Source: Dehalococcoidia bacterium (GTDB taxonomy: Bacteria; Chloroflexota; Dehalococcoidia; Lucifugimonadales; UBA1127). Taken from it: 37,451 bases of DNA. The translations under genes and the position numbers were made by a program. Below the pieces are notes generated by a model, which was given only the letters and a program-made list of their open reading frames with translations, was not told the DNA's origin and did no database searches. Positions 1,658 to 36,206 of this stretch are shown here, piece after piece. The DNA lies in assembly GCA_029936935.1 (NCBI GenBank), contig JAPYRQ010000017.1, forward strand, positions 1-37,451. Direction: 5' to 3'. Each line of letters opens with the position of its first letter. Positions within the stretch are counted from its first letter, which is position 1.

Positions 1658-4192
1658 ATGGCTATGGCTAGTAGGTTTGAGAAGTTCTCAGAACGGGCCC
1701 GCAGGGTTCTCTCCTTGTCCCAAGAAGAGGCGCTCCGGTTCAACCATAACTACATTGGCACGGAGCACATCCTTTTGGGGCTTGTCAGGGAGACGGAGGG
1801 CGTAGCTGCGCGTGTGCTTAGTAACTTAGGTATTGAGCTCAGCAAAGTGCGTTCCGCGGTAGAGTTCATCATCGGCAGAGGCGAAAAACCTGTTTCCGGC
1901 GAGAACATCGGCTTGACCCCCAGGGCCAAGCGTGTCATTGAGCTCGCTGTAGACGAAGCTCGCAGGATGAGCCACCACTACATCGGCACAGAGCATCTCC
2001 TCATCGGTCTCATGCGTGAGGGTGAGGGCGTTGCCGCAGGCGTGCTTGAGAGCCTAGGCGTCACTTTGGACAAGGTTAGAGCGGAAACGCAACGACTGTT
2101 GAGCCAGAGCCTGACTCCCGGTCAGCAGGGACAGGGATCCGGACGTGGGGCAACCGCTGCCAGCACAACACGGACACCCATCCTGGACCAACTCGGCGTA
2201 GACCTGACAGCGCTATCCCGCACCAGCAAGCTTGACCCGGTATGGGGTAGGCAGAAGGAACTCGCGAGGGCTATCCAGATTCTCTCCCGTAGAACAAAGA
2301 ACAACCCTGTGCTCATGGGTGAGCCCGGTGTTGGTAAGACCGCAATCGTTGAGGCACTTGCCCAAAAGATTGTAGCCGGTGACGTGCCAGAGACCTTGAT
2401 AGACAAGCGGTTGGTCACCCTGGACATGGGTGCCCTAGTAGCGGGAACCAAATATCGCGGTGAGTTTGAAGAGCGCCTGAAGAAGGTGCTTGAAGAGATC
2501 AAGGCTGCAGGCAACTGCGTCCTCTTCATTGACGAAATGCACACGTTGGTTGGCGCAGGTGCCGCTGAAGGCGCCGTAGACGCTGCCAACATCCTCAAGC
2601 CCGCCCTTGCCCGTGGAGAGATCAGGGTTATCGGCGCAACTACCCTGGACGACTATCGCAAGTACGTTGAACGGGATTCCGCGCTAGAGCGTCGGTTCCA
2701 GCCGGTGCTTGTTGAAGAGCCGACCGAGGAAGAGACTGCTGAGATTCTTCGACACGTGAAGGGTCGTTACGAAGAGCATCACAAGCTGATCATCAGTGAA
2801 GAAGCGGTTGTGGCAGCTGCAAGGCTGGCTGCACGCTTCATTCCGGATCGATTCCTGCCTGACAAGGCTATCGACTTGATCGACGAGGCCTCGTCGCGCG
2901 TACGTATCCTCCACAGCACTATGCCGCTCTCTGTAAAAGAGGCGATGAAGGTTCTGGAGAGCGTGCGCGGTGAGAAGGAAGAGGCCCTGTCCGATCAGCA
3001 GTACGAGTATGCTGCTGAACTGCGCGAGCGTGAGCTTACTCTTGCCGGCAAAGTGGAGAACCTTGAGGGCGAGTGGCAGGAAACCAAAGAGAACGAGCAG
3101 CCCACGGTGACCGCTGACGATGTTGCAGAGGTTGTGGGCATGTGGACCGGGATACCGGTGACCCGTTTGCAGACCAAGGAAACTGAGCGACTCCTTCACA
3201 TGGAAGAGCATCTCCACAACCGCATCATTGGCCAGGAAGAGGCTATCGTGGCGGTCTCCAAGGCTGTGCGTCGTGCACGATCCGGTCTCAAGGACCCCAG
3301 GCGGCCTGTGGGCGTGTTCACGTTCCTTGGGCCCACGGGTGTTGGTAAGACCGAGTTGGCCAGAGCGCTCGCTGAGTTCATGTTCGGATCTGACGATGCG
3401 TTAATCCGGTTGGACATGTCAGAGTTCATGGAGCGGCACACTGTGGCCCGCCTGGTTGGTGCACCTCCTGGGTACATAGGCTACGACGATGGTGGTCAGC
3501 TGACGGAGGCAATCCGTAGGAAGCCCCACTCAGTCATCCTGTTGGACGAGATTGAAAAGGCTCACCCGGATGTGTACAACATCCTTCTGCAGATCTTTGA
3601 CGATGGTCATTTGACCGACGCCAAGGGCAGGAAGGTGGACTTCCGCAACGCTGTCGTCATCATGACCAGTAACCTGGGTTCAGACCTGATTAAGCGTGAT
3701 ACCCGTCTTGGGTTCGCCGCCAAGCAAGATGACGGCAAGACGTTTGAACAGGACTACGCACGGATGCAGGAAAAGGTCATGGATGAGGTGAAGAAGTTCT
3801 TCCGGCCAGAGTTCCTGAACCGCATCGACGCCTCCGTGGTGTTCCATGCCCTGGATCAGAAGCACATCATTGAGATTGTTGATCTGATGCTGGACCAGGT
3901 ACAAAACGAGGTGAAGGACCAGGAGATGACCATGGTGGTCACCCAGGCCGCCAAGCAGAAGCTTGCAGAGGAAGGGTACGACCCACATCTGGGTGCTCGA
4001 CCGCTGCGCAGGGTTATTCAGAGTAAGATTGAAGACAAGCTCTCCGAGGAGATTCTGTCTGGCAAGTACGTCATAGGCGACAGGATTATCCTGGATGTAG
4101 ACGACAATGGAGATATTGTCAGCAGTCCAGACCTTACACCTGCGGAACCAGCTGAGCCGCCGGAACCGGCTGAAACCGCGACTGCTACCTAG
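1658..4192 (+). CDS. clpC: ATP-dependent Clp protease ATP-binding subunit ClpC
   Basis: 844 aa; Clp N repeats, two Walker A motifs ([16 protein letters not shown]), UVR-like middle segment, conserved NBD2. Confidence 0.96.
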
Positions 4193-4213: not shown

Positions 4214-4253
4214 AAAAGAAGAGGCCCTCTCCTAGGAGAGGGCCTCTTCTTTT
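4214..4253. terminator. Bidirectional intrinsic terminator (40-bp perfect palindrome)
   Basis: AAAAGAAGAGGCCCTCTCCTAGGAGAGGGCCTCTTCTTTT, symmetric about CCTAGG, located after clpC and facing the minus-strand gene block. Confidence 0.9.
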
Positions 4254-8941: not shown

Positions 8942-9276
8942 ACACGCCTAGTGCGGTGTGGGGGCGGCATACGATTTCAGTGTTACTTTGTAGCTACGAT
9001 TTGGGGTGTCAATTACCAGTGCTGAACATAGCATTTTTGAACCCGAGTAACTATACCAAATACAGCTAGGCGTGACAACGGCCATCAGTGCTAGCCCTGA
9101 ACCCATACCGAGGCCATTAGGCCTCAATGCAAACCTCGTTCCAATCCAAAAGTGGGTGCTGACCTAATTTCAGGAGAGCCGGGAGACCCAGACAGAAGCG
9201 TTAGATGTCCCCATCCGCCTCATCCTGGAGCAGGAAATAGGCCACCAAGGTTAGCCCTGGACCCATGCTGCGGTTG

Positions 9277-13950: not shown

Positions 13951-14044
13951 TTTTTAGCCGGGGACACGTCCCCCGGAACCCCATTGGTCCGTTATGCCGG
14001 GAACACATTTCCCAGATCCCTTTGCCAGAGGGGAACCCCTCTGG
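13951..14044. repeat. Cluster of three hairpin modules between nuoM and nuoL
   Basis: GGGGACACGTCCCCcGGAACCCC; CCGGGAACACATTTCCCAGATCCC; CCAGAGGGG-AA-CCCCTCTGGACTCCCC. Confidence 0.7.
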
Positions 14045-14066: not shown

Positions 14067-14093
14067 GTAACTTAGGTCCAGGGCTAGCCTTGG
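14067..14093 (-). repeat. Palindromic module just after the nuoL stop
   Basis: Minus strand: CCAAGGCTAGCCCTGGACCTAAGTTAC. Confidence 0.65.
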
Positions 14094-16100
14094 TTATCGA
14101 ATGAGATATATCAACAGCATGATTACCGCACCAGCGGTGAACACGCTTCCGTATGCCTGAACCTGTCCGTTTTGTATTGCCGCAATCCCGCGGCCGATAT
14201 TGCGCCCAACCCAGCCGATGTTGTCGGACACGCCGTCTACAAACACCCTATCGAACCAGTCCAGCAGGCCAGCGCCGTATCGATAGAAGACCTGACCGAC
14301 GATGAACCTCTCATACAGGTCGTCCATGTAGTACTTGCGCATGGTCAGTTGGTAGAGTGGCTTGAACGTCAAACGCTCAGGAGCAATCTTGCCCGCCGCG
14401 TAGGTGGCCCAGGCCAACCCCACTCCTGTCAGTGCAAGGATGATGGAGAGAATCGCCACCCACCCGATGAACTCAGGCGTCTCCGCGTGACCCAACGGCG
14501 CTACAAGGAACTCGCTAATCCAGTGCTTGGGGATGGTAAACAGCTTGAATGGCGCGTTTGCAACAAACCCAGACACCACCGCCAGCACAGCCAAAGCGCC
14601 CATAGGTAGAATCATCACCAATGGCGATTCAGCCATGTGGGCGTGACCGCCTTCCGCTATTTTCTCTTCTTCGTCGGCGGTCAGCACCATCTCGCTATCA
14701 GGCAATGCAACAGCTTCAGCCTTCTTTTCAACGCCGCCACGGAACTCACCGTGGAAGGTCATGAACAACGCCCGGAAGATATAGAACGCCGTCATGAAGG
14801 CCGCAGCCATCGCGAGGACGAACACCAATCGACTCACGAAGTCACCGTTGTGGAACGCCTCTGCCAGAATCTCGTCCTTGCTCCAGAACCCTGCAAGCGG
14901 GAATATCCCCGCCAGGCTTAACGATGCAACGACAAACATGCCGTAGGTCCAGGGCTGCACCTTGCGGAGGCCACCCATGAATCGCATATCGAAGGTGCCA
15001 ACCACGTGGTTGACACTACCGGCGCCCAGGAAGAGCAGCGCCTTGAAAAACGCATGGTTGAACAGATGGAACACCGCAGCGGTGTACGCGCCGATTCCCA
15101 GGGCCAGCATCATGTAGCCAAGCTGGCTGATGGTGGAGTAGGCCACCACACGCTTGATGTCGTTGCTGGTCATTGCCATCGTCGCGGCAAAGACCGTCGT
15201 GATACCGCCAGTGATGGCCACCAAGTTCATCGCGGATTCAGATCCCTCGAACACCGGGAACATCCTGGCGACCAGGAACACGCCCGCCGCGACCATTGTT
15301 GCCGCATGGATGAGCGCACTGACGGGGGTTGGGCCCTCCATCGCGTCGGGTAACCAGACATGCAACGGGAACTGGGCCGATTTACCCACAGCGCCGGCAA
15401 AGAACCCTATGGCCAACCAGGTAAGCGCCGTTGTGCCGAGCAAGCCAGCTCCGGCAGCTACGTAAATGTCGTTGATATTGAAAGAGTTCAAACCTGAGTT
15501 GCTAAAGACGTCCTGATGGAAGAAGAGGTACAGAATCGCGATGAGGAAACCTAAATCGCCAAGTCGCGTAACCAGGAACGCCTTCATGGCCGCTCGTGCC
15601 GCCGAGGGCCTGTGGTACCAGAACCCGATGAGCAGGTACGACGAGAGGCCTACAAGCTCCCAGAACACGAACATCTGCAGGATGCTGCTAGCGAGTACCA
15701 GTCCCAACATGGAAGCGGTGAAAAGCGACATGTAGGCGTAGTAGCGGGCATATCCGGCATCGCCCTTCATGTATGCCTGGGAATAGACCTGGACTGCCAG
15801 ACTGACACCCGTGACCACCACCAGCATGATGGCTGTCAGGGAGTTCATCAAGATGCCGATGCGTATCTCAAGGTTCCCAACAGTCAGCCATTCATGGGAG
15901 TCATAACCGATAGCCTGATCGTGACCGGTAGTCGACTTCAATGCCCAGAGCGACAGGGCGAAGGCACCGCCGATTGCGCCGATGGTGAGATAACCCGCCA
16001 GCTCACTTCGGTTGTTCAGGAACGGGCGTATCACCAGGGCAATAAGAACAAAGGACGCCATTGGTAGGAAGAAGATAGCCCAGGCAGCTGATTCCCACAT
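14094..16100 (-). CDS. nuoL: NADH-quinone oxidoreductase subunit L
   Basis: 668 aa; 'GKSAQFPLHVWLPDAMEGPTPVSALIHAATMVAAGVFLVAR', 'DIKRVVAYSTISQLGYMMLALG'. Confidence 0.96.
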   Translation of the reverse strand: MWESAAWAIFFLPMASFVLIALVIRPFLNNRSELAGYLTIGAIGGAFALSLWALKSTTGHDQAIGYDSHEWLTVGNLEIRIGILMNSLTAIMLVVVTGVSLAVQVYSQAYMKGDAGYARYYAYMSLFTASMLGLVLASSILQMFVFWELVGLSSYLLIGFWYHRPSAARAAMKAFLVTRLGDLGFLIAILYLFFHQDVFSNSGLNSFNINDIYVAAGAGLLGTTALTWLAIGFFAGAVGKSAQFPLHVWLPDAMEGPTPVSALIHAATMVAAGVFLVARMFPVFEGSESAMNLVAITGGITTVFAATMAMTSNDIKRVVAYSTISQLGYMMLALGIGAYTAAVFHLFNHAFFKALLFLGAGSVNHVVGTFDMRFMGGLRKVQPWTYGMFVVASLSLAGIFPLAGFWSKDEILAEAFHNGDFVSRLVFVLAMAAAFMTAFYIFRALFMTFHGEFRGGVEKKAEAVALPDSEMVLTADEEEKIAEGGHAHMAESPLVMILPMGALAVLAVVSGFVANAPFKLFTIPKHWISEFLVAPLGHAETPEFIGWVAILSIILALTGVGLAWATYAAGKIAPERLTFKPLYQLTMRKYYMDDLYERFIVGQVFYRYGAGLLDWFDRVFVDGVSDNIGWVGRNIGRGIAAIQNGQVQAYGSVFTAGAVIMLLIYLIR

Positions 16101-16321: not shown

Positions 16322-16377
16322 TTTTTTAACTGGGGACACGTCCCCCGGGAGCCCCCTTTGGCCTGCCCTAATTGGAA
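16322..16377. repeat. Hairpin module related to 13951-13984
   Basis: 'ttttttaactggggacacgtcccccgggagcccc' matches 'tttttagccggggacacgtcccccggaacccc'; followed by GGAAG-CACAT-CTTCC (16374-16388). Confidence 0.65.
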
Positions 16378-22595: not shown

Positions 22596-22656
22596 GCTAA
22601 ATCCACCGCTTTCCTATTGGGCAAAATATAGCATAGGGGCGTGAAAAAAACCACAA

Positions 22657-22697
22657 TCCAGGGCGATGCCCTGGATCCATATGACCTGGCGGTTACC
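22657..22697 (+). repeat. Palindromic module
   Basis: TCCAGGGCGATGCCCTGGATCCATATGACCTGGCGGTTACC; tail matches the 32640-end copy (ACCTGACGGTTACC) with one mismatch. Confidence 0.75.
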
Positions 22698-22811
22698 ACC
22701 AAGGCTCAGTAATCATCAGTCAGCCAGGCAACGACCATAGCGCATCGACTTTGCCTGATGATAGTGAGACCATAGGTGCCAGTCAGAACAGCTGAAACAG
22801 GGGAGGACGTG

Positions 22812-25810: not shown

Positions 25811-27184
25811 ATGACTACCGGATTAAAACCGCACCAACTCTCAGCCGCACAGGCCGCCGCATTAATACGTTCAGGTGACCTATCACCGGTGATGCTGGTG
25901 GAAGACCTTCTGCGCCGCATCGACGAGCTGGAGCCAATGCTTCAAGCATGGGTGACCGTTGACCGTGAGGGCGCTCTGGCAACGGCTAAGGCTTCTGAGC
26001 TAGAGCTTGAGAAGTCGGGGCCGCGCGGGCCTCTCCACGGCGTTCCTGTTGGTCTGAAGGACATCTTCTATACCGCCGGGCTCAAGACCACCGCGGGATC
26101 ACCGCTCTATGCCGACTTTGTGCCCGAGTATGACGCTACGTCCGTGGCCAAGTTCCGACAGGCAGGGGCAATCGTGCTGGGCAAGACCGTCACTACGGAG
26201 TTCGCGGACGGCGACCCGTCACCCACGTTCAACCCCTGGAACCTGGAACACACACCCGGTGGCTCAAGCAGCGGATCGGGAGCGGCCATCGCTGCGGGCA
26301 TGGTTCCTATCGCCACGGGCTCCCAGACGGTCGGCTCAACACTTCGGCCAGCGGCGTACAACGGCATCGTCGGGCTGAAGCCAACGTTGGGGCTCATCAG
26401 CACCTACGGCGTGGTTCCCGTCAGCTTCTCCACAGACACCGTGGGCATCATGGTACGCACGGTTGAGGACGCAGCCCTGACCCTGGACGCACTGGCAGGC
26501 TACGACTCCAAGAACCCCGCCTTGGTCAACGTGCCCGTGGGTCAGTACCACGCTGCCGTGTACCGCAGGCAGTCACCACCCCGTATCGGTCTACTGAAGG
26601 ACTTTTTCTACGAGCGGGCTGACGAAGAGGTTCGCAGCCACACTGACACAGTTGCACAGAAGCTGGCAGCAGCCGGGGCCATCGTCGAGGAGGTCACGCT
26701 GCCGGAACCGTTCCACAGAGCCGTAGAGGACATCGCCAGCGTGGTCTGGGCAGAGACTGCAGCCTTCCATGAAGAGAGCTACGCCCACCATCGAGAGGAC
26801 TACGGCCCCAACATCGGCAGTCGCATGGACCGCGCATTGGAGTCGTCACCGATTCCGTATATCAAGGCCCAACAGGGTAGGAAACCGCTTCAGGCCGCAA
26901 TGGAACCGATCTTCGCCAAGTACGATGTGCTCTTAAGCCCTTGCACTCCCGGCCCTGCGCCCAAGGACCGCACGACCACCGGGCAGACGTTCTTCCAGGC
27001 TCCGTGGACGTGGATTGCATGCCCAACTATCGGGGTGCCAAGCGGACTGGCAGCGAACGGGATGCCATTGGCCATACAACTGGCTGCAGGGCCGTTTGAC
27101 GAGGAGCGGTTGATTGGCGCGGCGGCGTGGTGCGAACGAGTGCTGGATGTGCATCTGACACCCATGAACCCGAACCAGGGTTAA
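25811..27184 (+). CDS. Amidase (GatA-like amidase-signature family)
   Basis: 457 aa; 'GPLHGVPVGLKDIFYTAG', 'TPGGSSSGSGAAIAAGMVPIATGSQTVGSTLRPAAYNGIVGLKPT'. Confidence 0.92.
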   Translation: MTTGLKPHQLSAAQAAALIRSGDLSPVMLVEDLLRRIDELEPMLQAWVTVDREGALATAKASELELEKSGPRGPLHGVPVGLKDIFYTAGLKTTAGSPLYADFVPEYDATSVAKFRQAGAIVLGKTVTTEFADGDPSPTFNPWNLEHTPGGSSSGSGAAIAAGMVPIATGSQTVGSTLRPAAYNGIVGLKPTLGLISTYGVVPVSFSTDTVGIMVRTVEDAALTLDALAGYDSKNPALVNVPVGQYHAAVYRRQSPPRIGLLKDFFYERADEEVRSHTDTVAQKLAAAGAIVEEVTLPEPFHRAVEDIASVVWAETAAFHEESYAHHREDYGPNIGSRMDRALESSPIPYIKAQQGRKPLQAAMEPIFAKYDVLLSPCTPGPAPKDRTTTGQTFFQAPWTWIACPTIGVPSGLAANGMPLAIQLAAGPFDEERLIGAAAWCERVLDVHLTPMNPNQG

Positions 27185-27229
27185 CCCTGGACCCATGTTT
27201 ACCAGGGCACGCCCTGGACCCGAGCTTAC
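27175..27229 (+). repeat. Two tandem palindromic modules; the first contains the amidase stop codon
   Basis: CCAGGGTTAACCCTGG (27175-27190, perfect) + ACCCATGTTTACC, then CCAGGGC-AC-GCCCTGG (27202-27217) + ACCCGAGCTTACGG. Confidence 0.8.
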
Positions 27230-31577: not shown

Positions 31578-32591
31578 ATGATTCGTGAAGCGATTGGCGC
31601 GGTAGTCGGCGGAGCTTCCTTGACCCTGGAAGAAGCCGCAGGCGTCATGGAAGAGATCATGTCAGGCGAGGCGACTCCGGCTCAAATCGGGGCATATGTC
31701 ACCGCGCTTCGACTTAAAGGCGAGACATCAGAGGAGATCGCCGGGATGGCGCAGGTCATGCGAGCGAACGGTCTTAAAGTGGTGTACCAGGAGCCGTTGG
31801 TGGACATCGTCGGCACTGGGGGAGATAGTCTCAACACCTTCAACATCTCAACAGCATCGGCTCTGGTGCTGGCGGCGTCAGGGGTCAAAGTGGCCAAGCA
31901 CGGTGCTCGAGCGGCATCGAGTGTGGCTGGCGCGGCAGACGTCCTGGAGGCGTGTGGCGTAAAGCTTGAGTTGACGCCGGAAGAGGTGATGCGATGCATC
32001 GATGAGGCGGGTATGGGCTTCATGTACGCCCCTGCCTTCCATCCTGCAATGCGGCACGCTGGCGCGCCTCGACGGGAAATAGGCATCCGTACCTTCTTCA
32101 ACATCCTTGGACCCATGACAAACCCCGCCGGCGCGGAATCGCTGGTGGTGGGGATAGCAGACCCGGCGTTTGGTGAACGGATGGCCCAGGCCTACGGTCA
32201 GCTTGGCTGCAAACACGTCTTGATAGTGCACGGTTCTGACGGTGCTGACGAACTGACACTGACCGGCCCATCGGAAATATGGGAGATGAAGGGTGGAGAA
32301 GTCACCCACTACGAACTCAAGTTGGAAGATGTGGGGCTGGAGCCCTGTGCGCCTGAAGCATTGAAAGGCAGTGTTGCTGAAGAGAACGCGGAGACCATGG
32401 AGCGACTGCTTGATGGGGAGCTAGGCCCGCTGCATCGCGCTGTGGCATTGAACGCCGGTGCAGGTATGTATGTGGCCGGTACGGTAAGCACCTTGAAAGA
32501 AGGTGCTGAAGCTGCTCGGAAGGTACTATCAAGCAAAGCGGCCCTTGCAACCCTCAAGAAGCTGGTAGAAGTAAGCAACCAGCAGGGCTAG
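31578..32591 (+). CDS. trpD: Anthranilate phosphoribosyltransferase
   Basis: 337 aa; 'DIVGTGGDSLNTFNISTASALVLAASGVKVAKHGARAASSVAGAADVLEACG'. Confidence 0.96.
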   Translation: MIREAIGAVVGGASLTLEEAAGVMEEIMSGEATPAQIGAYVTALRLKGETSEEIAGMAQVMRANGLKVVYQEPLVDIVGTGGDSLNTFNISTASALVLAASGVKVAKHGARAASSVAGAADVLEACGVKLELTPEEVMRCIDEAGMGFMYAPAFHPAMRHAGAPRREIGIRTFFNILGPMTNPAGAESLVVGIADPAFGERMAQAYGQLGCKHVLIVHGSDGADELTLTGPSEIWEMKGGEVTHYELKLEDVGLEPCAPEALKGSVAEENAETMERLLDGELGPLHRAVALNAGAGMYVAGTVSTLKEGAEAARKVLSSKAALATLKKLVEVSNQQG

Positions 32592-32640
32592 CCCTGGCCC
32601 CCAGGGTTCAACCCTGGACCTAGGCTACCTGACGGTTACC
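32583..32640 (+). repeat. Two palindromic modules; the first contains the trpD stop codon
   Basis: CAGGGCTAGCCCTG (32583-32596, perfect) and CCAGGGTTCAACCCTGG (32601-32617) + ACCTAGGCTACCTGACGGTTACC. Confidence 0.8.
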
Positions 32641-32668
32641 TAATGATGGCCAACGAGTAGAGGACAAG

Positions 32669-33465: not shown

Positions 33466-34173
33466 ATGACGATAGTGAAGATCTGCGGCATGCGGGAGCT
33501 GTCCCACATGGTCGCAGCCGCCGAAGCAGGCGCAGACATGCTGGGCATGGTGTTCGTGCCAGCCGTTCGACGCTACATCAAACCCGAGGACGCTCGCACC
33601 CTAACCAACGATTTCCGAAGTAAATACCCTACCACTGCTGCCCCCCGGACTGGTGTGGGTCAAGGGCTAGCCCTTGTGGGGTTGTTTGCCGACCAGCCAG
33701 TGGAAGAGGTCAACGAAGTGGCAGCGAGCGTAGGGCTGGACATGGTGCAGCTGTGCGGCGATGAGCAGATCGACTACTGGGGAAAGGTCAACGTACCTCT
33801 CCTGAAGGTCGTACACGTAGTGACTCTGCCCACAGAAAGCCAGACTGCCCGCAACATCGTCATGAAAGACGTACACTTCAGGCTGCAGGAGCTTGGGGAG
33901 TCTGGCCACAGCGCAGTACTTGACCGCCAGTCTGACGTGCAACCCGGCGGTATGGGCGAGACGTTTGACTGGTCAATCGCCCGGGAGATGGCTGACCGTG
34001 GACATCGTTTCCTGCTGGCGGGCGGGCTGAACCCTGAGAACGTAGGAAACGCCATAGAAGCTACGCAGCCCTACGGTGTGGACGTCTCCAGCGGTGTAGA
34101 ATCTGATGGCGTGAAAGACATCGCCAAAATCCAGGCATTCATCGCGACGGCGAAAAGGAACTCCCAAGAATGA
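33466..34173 (+). CDS. trpF: Phosphoribosylanthranilate isomerase
   Basis: 235 aa; '[27 protein letters not shown]', '[31 protein letters not shown]', '[15 protein letters not shown]'. Confidence 0.94.
33648..33676 (-). repeat. Palindromic module inside trpF
   Basis: Minus strand CAAGGGCTAGCCCTTG (33661-33676, perfect) followed by ACCCACACCAGTC. Confidence 0.65.
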
Positions 34174-35650: not shown

Positions 35651-36037
35651 ATGCCGACTCCCGCCCTTCGTAAAGTCGATAGCATCATGTACAAGGTCAA
35701 AGACCTGGCCATCTCCGAGGCCTTCTATACCGATGTCATGGGCATGACAAAGGTTTGGGAAGACACCGACCAGGGTATGATGGGCTTCCTTCTCAAGGAC
35801 AGCGATTCTGAGATTGTGCTCCACACTCGGGACGACCTTCCGCCCTTCAGCTACAATTACCTGGTCGATAACGTGCGACAGTTCTGTGACGAGCACCGTC
35901 GCAAGGACTACAAGATCGCCTTTGGCCCCATCAAGGTGCGCTCCGGCAGCTACGCCGTCCTGGTAGACCCCGACGGCAACCGCATCCCCATCATCGATCT
36001 GACGGAGTTCGGTGGCGTCCCTCGCTACGATCGGTAG
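35651..36037 (+). CDS. VOC family (glyoxalase/bleomycin-resistance-like) protein
   Basis: 128 aa; 'VDSIMYKVKDLAISEAFYTDVMGMTKVWEDTDQGMMGFLL...YAVLVDPDGNRIPIIDL'. Confidence 0.85.
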   Translation: MPTPALRKVDSIMYKVKDLAISEAFYTDVMGMTKVWEDTDQGMMGFLLKDSDSEIVLHTRDDLPPFSYNYLVDNVRQFCDEHRRKDYKIAFGPIKVRSGSYAVLVDPDGNRIPIIDLTEFGGVPRYDR

Positions 36038-36111
36038 GGCTAGCCCTACACCCACATGCCTGCAGTTACCAAAGTCAGGGAATTGCCTGCACCCACATTC
36101 CTGTGGTTACC
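36035..36111 (+). repeat. Two palindromic modules; the first begins with the VOC gene stop codon
   Basis: TAGGGCTAGCCCTA (36035-36048, perfect) + CACCCACATGCCTGCAGTTACC; CAGGGAATTGCCTG + CACCCACATTCCTGTGGTTACC (36076-36111). Confidence 0.8.
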
Positions 36112-36206
36112 CTAGTGGTCGAAACTATAGACGCCTACGCATTGTGTCCGAAATGTATTAGTATTCGCCACGAATCATGAATATCCATTATGAGTAGCCC
36201 TTGAGC

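Follow-up and report, generated by a model that had tools for sequence, protein, structure and literature searches.

A dispersed REP-like repeat with its hairpin at the stop codons of genes in two Dehalococcoidia draft genomes

We analysed a 37,451-nt stretch of DNA (the window) from G000, the draft genome of a Dehalococcoidia bacterium, in which short palindromes meet the ends of genes. An amidase gene (ORF with PF01425, positions 25811 to 27184, plus strand) ends in NPNQG*, and its TAA (27182-27184) lies in the loop of the hairpin CCAGGGTTAACCCTGG (27175-27190). Likewise, trpD (31578-32591, plus strand; PF00591/PF02885) ends in SNQQG*, with its TAG (32589-32591) in the hairpin loop of the palindrome CAGGGCTAGCCCTG (32583-32596, plus strand). 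An earlier sequence-only reading of the window had described these two QG* endings with stops inside palindrome centres, and coordinates and translations agree with it. It had also counted a VOC/glyoxalase-family gene (35651-36037, plus strand; PF00903) as a like case, which we could not uphold. This gene ends in RYDR* (last residues DR), and its TAG (36035-36037) forms the outer 5' edge of the stem TAGGGCTAGCCCTA rather than its centre, so that neither the QG ending nor the placement of the stop is common to all three.

The palindrome at these gene ends is the 5' hairpin of a longer repeat of about 41 nt. At the amidase end, the hairpin and the linker GACCCATG form a first unit (27175-27197, plus strand) in which no 3' module could be recognised. 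Behind it lies a second 5' module, CCAGGGCACGCCCTGGACCCGAG (27201-27224, plus strand). A complete tandem unit, CCAGGGTTCAACCCTGGACCTAGGCTACCTGACGGTTACCTAATG (32598-32645, plus strand), stands between trpD and trpC. Two tandem 41-nt units follow the VOC gene: unit A, TAGGGCTAGCCCTACACCCACATGCCTGCAGTTACCAAAGT (36035-36075), and unit B (36076-36116), both on the plus strand. An antisense copy lies in frame within trpF (33466-34173, plus strand; ORF with Pfam support), reading CCACAAGGGCTAGCCCTTGACCCACACC on the minus strand (33652-33679); it sits within an 11-residue in-frame insertion that is absent from the sister species G003 and three congeners. A complete unit is found between divergent genes (22656-22698, plus strand), and a 5' module lies directly behind the nuoL stop (14067-14093, minus strand; TAA at 14094-14096). 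Two further 5' modules are intergenic, one at 9084-9107 (plus strand), away from stops and with CAGGGCTAGCCCTGCACCC at the same site in G003, the other at 9244-9267 (plus strand). In all, the units that the earlier reading had not listed stand at 9084, 9244, 14067 (minus), 22656, 27201, 32600, 33652 (minus) and 36076. An Rfam search of the window at gathering score returned only 5S rRNA, leaving the element unmatched.

The repeat consensus is CAGGGYTARCCCTG-SACCCAYRTG-ACCTGACGGTTACCnAAG (hairpin, linker and 3' module). Aligned palindromes had the right flank in common, and a search with this flank also recovered copies with a different hairpin sequence. A whole-element profile built from 38 copies gave 191 matches at E<=1 in 1.34 Mb sampled from G000 and G003 (likewise a draft), and 0 in reversed sequence; element counts refer to these sampled stretches, not to complete genomes. 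The exact sequence CAGGGNTANCCCTG occurred at 13 sites in the 2.05-Mb genome G000 (reversed pattern, 0), while CAGGGYTARCCCTG with up to two mismatches gave 100 matches compared with 18 in the control. If one looked at this window alone, its two or three cases might be put down to palindromic, restriction-like words overlapping gene ends by chance. This explanation is refuted, and retains practically no probability, once copies are counted genome-wide and compared with reversed sequence and with random placement. In about half of the copies, no 3' module could be recognised after the hairpin and linker; a few had a different module in its place (TCGCTGCGGCGA...). The repeat family is therefore mosaic. 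Loop centres varied among copies, with neither CTAG nor TTAA fixed, and stems with 4-nt and 5-nt loops were both present.

A simple caller based on hexamers predicted the genes of the sampled stretches, and each copy was placed relative to the nearest stop codon. Directly behind a sense stop codon, within a few bases, lay 59 of 190 copies. The modal spacing was zero, the stop touching the stem (offset -3) in 28 copies. The upstream gene's stop fell inside the hairpin in 41 of 190 copies, with a modal offset of +7, which is the loop. Other classes held a stop in the 3' half of the element (8 copies), a stop far away (10), no stop at all (47) or a position within an ORF (9). For non-coding copies, a stop directly before the stem occurred in 32.6%, compared with 2.2% for random intergenic placement in both orientations, and a stop inside the hairpin in 22.7%, compared with 3.3%. 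The expected enrichment of stops in hairpins was thus found in the sampled stretches. Some of these stretches had been picked because palindromes were present; as a check on sampling bias, stretches chosen by contig number rather than for palindromes gave the same stop-class proportions. Copies at stops were mostly in the sense orientation relative to the gene. A stop triplet stood at the loop in 87% of the copies that ended a gene in the hairpin, compared with 33-37% of those that follow a stop or have none at all. The suggestion that a CTAG or TTAA centre provides the stop therefore captured the role of the loop where it is used, but not the centre sequence, which varies.

G+C-rich hairpins at gene ends bring to mind intrinsic transcription terminators. 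This interpretation is extremely unlikely. The conserved SACCCAYRTG adjoins the stem on its 3' side, where the terminator class (a G+C-rich hairpin followed by a T-run) has its run of T. Moreover, within the trp cluster one copy separates trpD from trpC, the next gene lay within 150 nt in 33 of 68 same-strand cases, and convergent gene pairs were hardly enriched (37 of 105, compared with 404 of 1,286).

The exact contact of stop and stem in 28 copies (offset -3) is tighter than tolerance alone predicts. A modal spacing of exactly zero would suit insertion directed to translation stops by sequence, structure or coupling to termination, as would a second repeat, GTCGCTGCGGCGAGGRGACTAAAGCC, that likewise clusters 8-28 nt behind stops. 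In that case the placement would stem from the mechanism rather than from selection afterwards. However, copies away from stops show no conserved upstream bases, which rules out a TA or TAG insertion target; target duplication was not found in aligned sites, and G000-G004 yielded no candidate enzyme. We regard directed insertion as very unlikely.

Comparison of protein C-termini separated the two main classes of copies. To find orthologues in G003 and in element-free congeners, concatenated C-termini served as search queries. QG* was the commonest last pair among the called genes (28 of 1,312), and 14 of the 28 came from the element. Proteins ending in the hairpin closed with QG* (14), KG* (7) or other residues. 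In eight of nine stop-in-hairpin genes, the last residues differed from those of element-free congeners: NPNQG vs DPK/DPR, KRQG vs SQRA, NLQG vs ELD and NRKG vs NRQN. The amidase and TrpD both differed in this way from orthologues lacking the element, TrpD ending in SNQQG rather than SQSA or SQRT. One KG* (in the stretch L045) was native, its element-free orthologues ending likewise. Where the element follows the stop, ending and length mostly remained those of the congeners (e.g. GLDLL*, KGL*, FLFSV*, RLDNPN* and HTRP*).

The same gene could also fall into different classes in G000 and G003, one species using a stop in front of the stem and the other a stop at or within the hairpin (the VOC gene; L062/L222; L071/L210). 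At the VOC locus, G003 has a single element unit where G000 has the tandem pair, and the G003 protein retains the R* end with a TAA preceding the element. The sequence-only reading had held that element insertion replaced native C-termini. This is right for about a fifth of copies, the 41 of 190 with a stop in the hairpin, but not for the 59 in which the stop in front was kept. Replacement was also slight. Changes were confined to the last one to three residues, and eight of nine genes differed in length by no more than three; a single gene had lost about 10 residues.

The profile models sequence only, and stem pairing was counted copy by copy. With six positions per copy, 1,024 of 1,140 cells were Watson-Crick, and all four Watson-Crick pair types occurred at outer stem positions. 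RNAalifold on a MAFFT alignment returned 0 pairs because the alignment did not bring stems with 4-nt and 5-nt loops into register. At 16 sites common to G000 and G003, 27 pairs had changed on both sides with Watson-Crick pairing kept; at the same sites, 10 changes affected one side only, and 7 affected both sides and destroyed pairing. Paired changes of this kind can arise by exchange between copies or reflect selection for the hairpin. G-U and A-C cells were equally rare (34 and 30), and there was therefore no sign of selection on RNA rather than DNA.

These data bear on the idea of a functional 3'-end RNA element, in which a hairpin kept at the stop tunes termination, ribosome stalling or mRNA decay and owes its position to selection. 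The paired changes at sites common to two species are consistent with such a role, as are the sense orientation and the exact contact with stops. There is also a precedent, since ribosomes are reported to stall at E. coli REPs that lie no more than 15 nt from a stop (earlier work cited in PMC12306157). On the other hand, exchange between copies can also yield paired changes, G-U is not in excess over A-C, and many copies stand at no stop (47 with none and 10 with a distant one, of 190). We consider this explanation unlikely.

A search of 60 relatives found at least 100 copies in G000 and at least 98 in G003, both lower limits with 97 candidates scored per genome, and 0 copies in the congeners G001, G002 and G004. 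Among comparable element sites, 34 of 58 were common to G000 and G003, which argues for a functional RNA element; the absence of the element from the same genes in three congeners argues against one. Some copies present in one of the two species were not recognised at the equivalent place in the other. A Y1/RAYT transposase (PF01797) gave no match in the five draft genomes of the genus (G000-G004), and the aligned G000/G003 sites contained no clean empty site with target duplication. Mobility is therefore a presumption. Elsewhere among the relatives, G039 had one element match, on a probably mis-binned contig with 81-92% identity to G000. G045, from another family of the order, had three good copies, two of them in tandem (L257, 4495-4572 and 8795-8833), on a contig not similar to G000. 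These may represent wider occurrence, transfer or contamination.

Repeats of comparable organisation are known. According to Di Nocera et al. (2013, PMC3733652), GTAG and CGTC REPs lie near gene 3' ends, neighbouring ORFs often take their TAG stop from the terminus of a GTAG REP, and the CGTC class lacks a transposase of its own. The present repeat resembles both in being a short palindrome in many copies near gene 3' ends, with some copies in frame inside genes, and, as no REP-type transposase was found in the five draft genomes, resembles CGTC REPs in this respect too. It fits a broad description of REPs as palindromic units of 20-40 nt in many copies with a consensus (here about 41 nt) and a mainly extragenic location (9 of 190 copies in ORFs). 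In contrast to GTAG and CGTC REPs, it has its stop in the hairpin loop or before the stem, and a conserved one-sided 3' module. The consensus lacks an unpaired GTAG at the stem end, and no RAYT was found in five draft genomes. Nor did we find the arrangement of CGTC REPs (CGTC beside an 8-9 bp stem, a loop of 4-5 and a CCA tail); a GACG/CGTC word is present within the 3' module, some 14 nt away from the stem. As the tag beside the stem is absent, we place the repeat in neither superfamily. A MITE was rejected on the grounds that the palindrome is at one end only and aligned sites show no target duplication.

Compared with the E. coli REP/BIME system (reviewed in PMC12306157), the repeat is alike in its hairpins near stops, mosaic modules and copies between operon genes, but it is unrelated in sequence, has no RAYT that we could find and often carries the stop inside the hairpin. 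Rickettsia palindromic elements (as cited in PMC3733652) likewise lie in frame inside conserved genes (TrpF here); the present repeat is rarely internal (9 of 190 copies in ORFs) and unrelated in sequence. In the open-licence literature, we found no description of this repeat family and, for stop-overlapping palindromes in this lineage, nothing closer than PMC3733652 and PMC12306157. The repeat is a REP-like mosaic whose family is apparently undescribed. Stops supplied by REP termini have already been reported (PMC3733652), and a stop in the hairpin loop is a variation on that theme.

Our data are best accommodated by a dispersed, mosaic REP-like repeat that probably multiplied in the G000/G003 lineage, mostly at the 3' edges of genes, and that ends proteins in its loop where it lands just before a stop. 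Copies would have become established mainly at the 3' edge in the sense orientation. A copy just behind the native stop would leave the protein end intact. A copy landing a few bases before the stop would carry the frame into the hairpin, to end at a stop triplet at or close to the loop, and the reading CAG GGY TAR would yield QG* or KG*. The restricted occurrence of the repeat and the presence/absence differences between the two species suggest spread by non-autonomous mobility. Insertions deeper in genes were presumably mostly purged, and a hairpin at the stop may be tolerated or may even be of use, perhaps because it forms an RNA structure at the 3' end that influences translation or mRNA stability, a role also proposed for E. 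coli REPs lying within 15 nt of a stop.

That the repeat is directed to translation stops, whether because of how it inserts or because a 'stop-in-hairpin' module is selected for, appears quite unlikely. If it were, one mobile sequence would provide dozens of unrelated genes in a marine lineage with an interchangeable gene end, stop codon and 3' hairpin together. QG* is the commonest C-terminal pair in the sampled genes because of one repeat, and in this sense a small repeat writes protein ends. With about half of copies at stops where a few per cent are expected, the known link between REP-like repeats and gene ends can be measured here in a lineage that lacks the usual REP transposase, with element-free congeners as a baseline.

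Several other repeats and palindromes were observed. A second repeat family, RYRTGTCGCTGCGGCGAGGRGACTAAAGCC, had 28 sites (0 in the control; e.g. L063 14892, L067 10591 on the minus strand and L062 8501). It clusters 8-28 nt behind sense stops and can stand in for the 3' module of the first repeat. Within the window, a pair of intergenic TTTTTARCYGGGGACACGTCCCCCGG repeats, 88% identical, lies at 13951-13982 and 16323-16354, with related copies in G003. A perfect 40-nt palindrome (AAAAGAAGAGGCCCTCTCCT/AGGAGAGGGCCTCTTCTTTT, 4214-4253) shortly behind a Clp-type ATPase gene ending at 4192 looks like an ordinary terminator.

MoaD-like proteins normally end at a diglycine. In G000 and G003, a MoaD-like small protein (L060 5763-5349 and L086 6048-5685, minus strand) extends beyond PPVSGG with a tail coded by the repeat, giving PPVSGG-WAEPTSSS* in G000 and PPVSGG-QGATLDSYDLTVG* in G003. 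Unless removed by cleavage, such an extension should prevent the protein from being activated at its C-terminus in the usual way.
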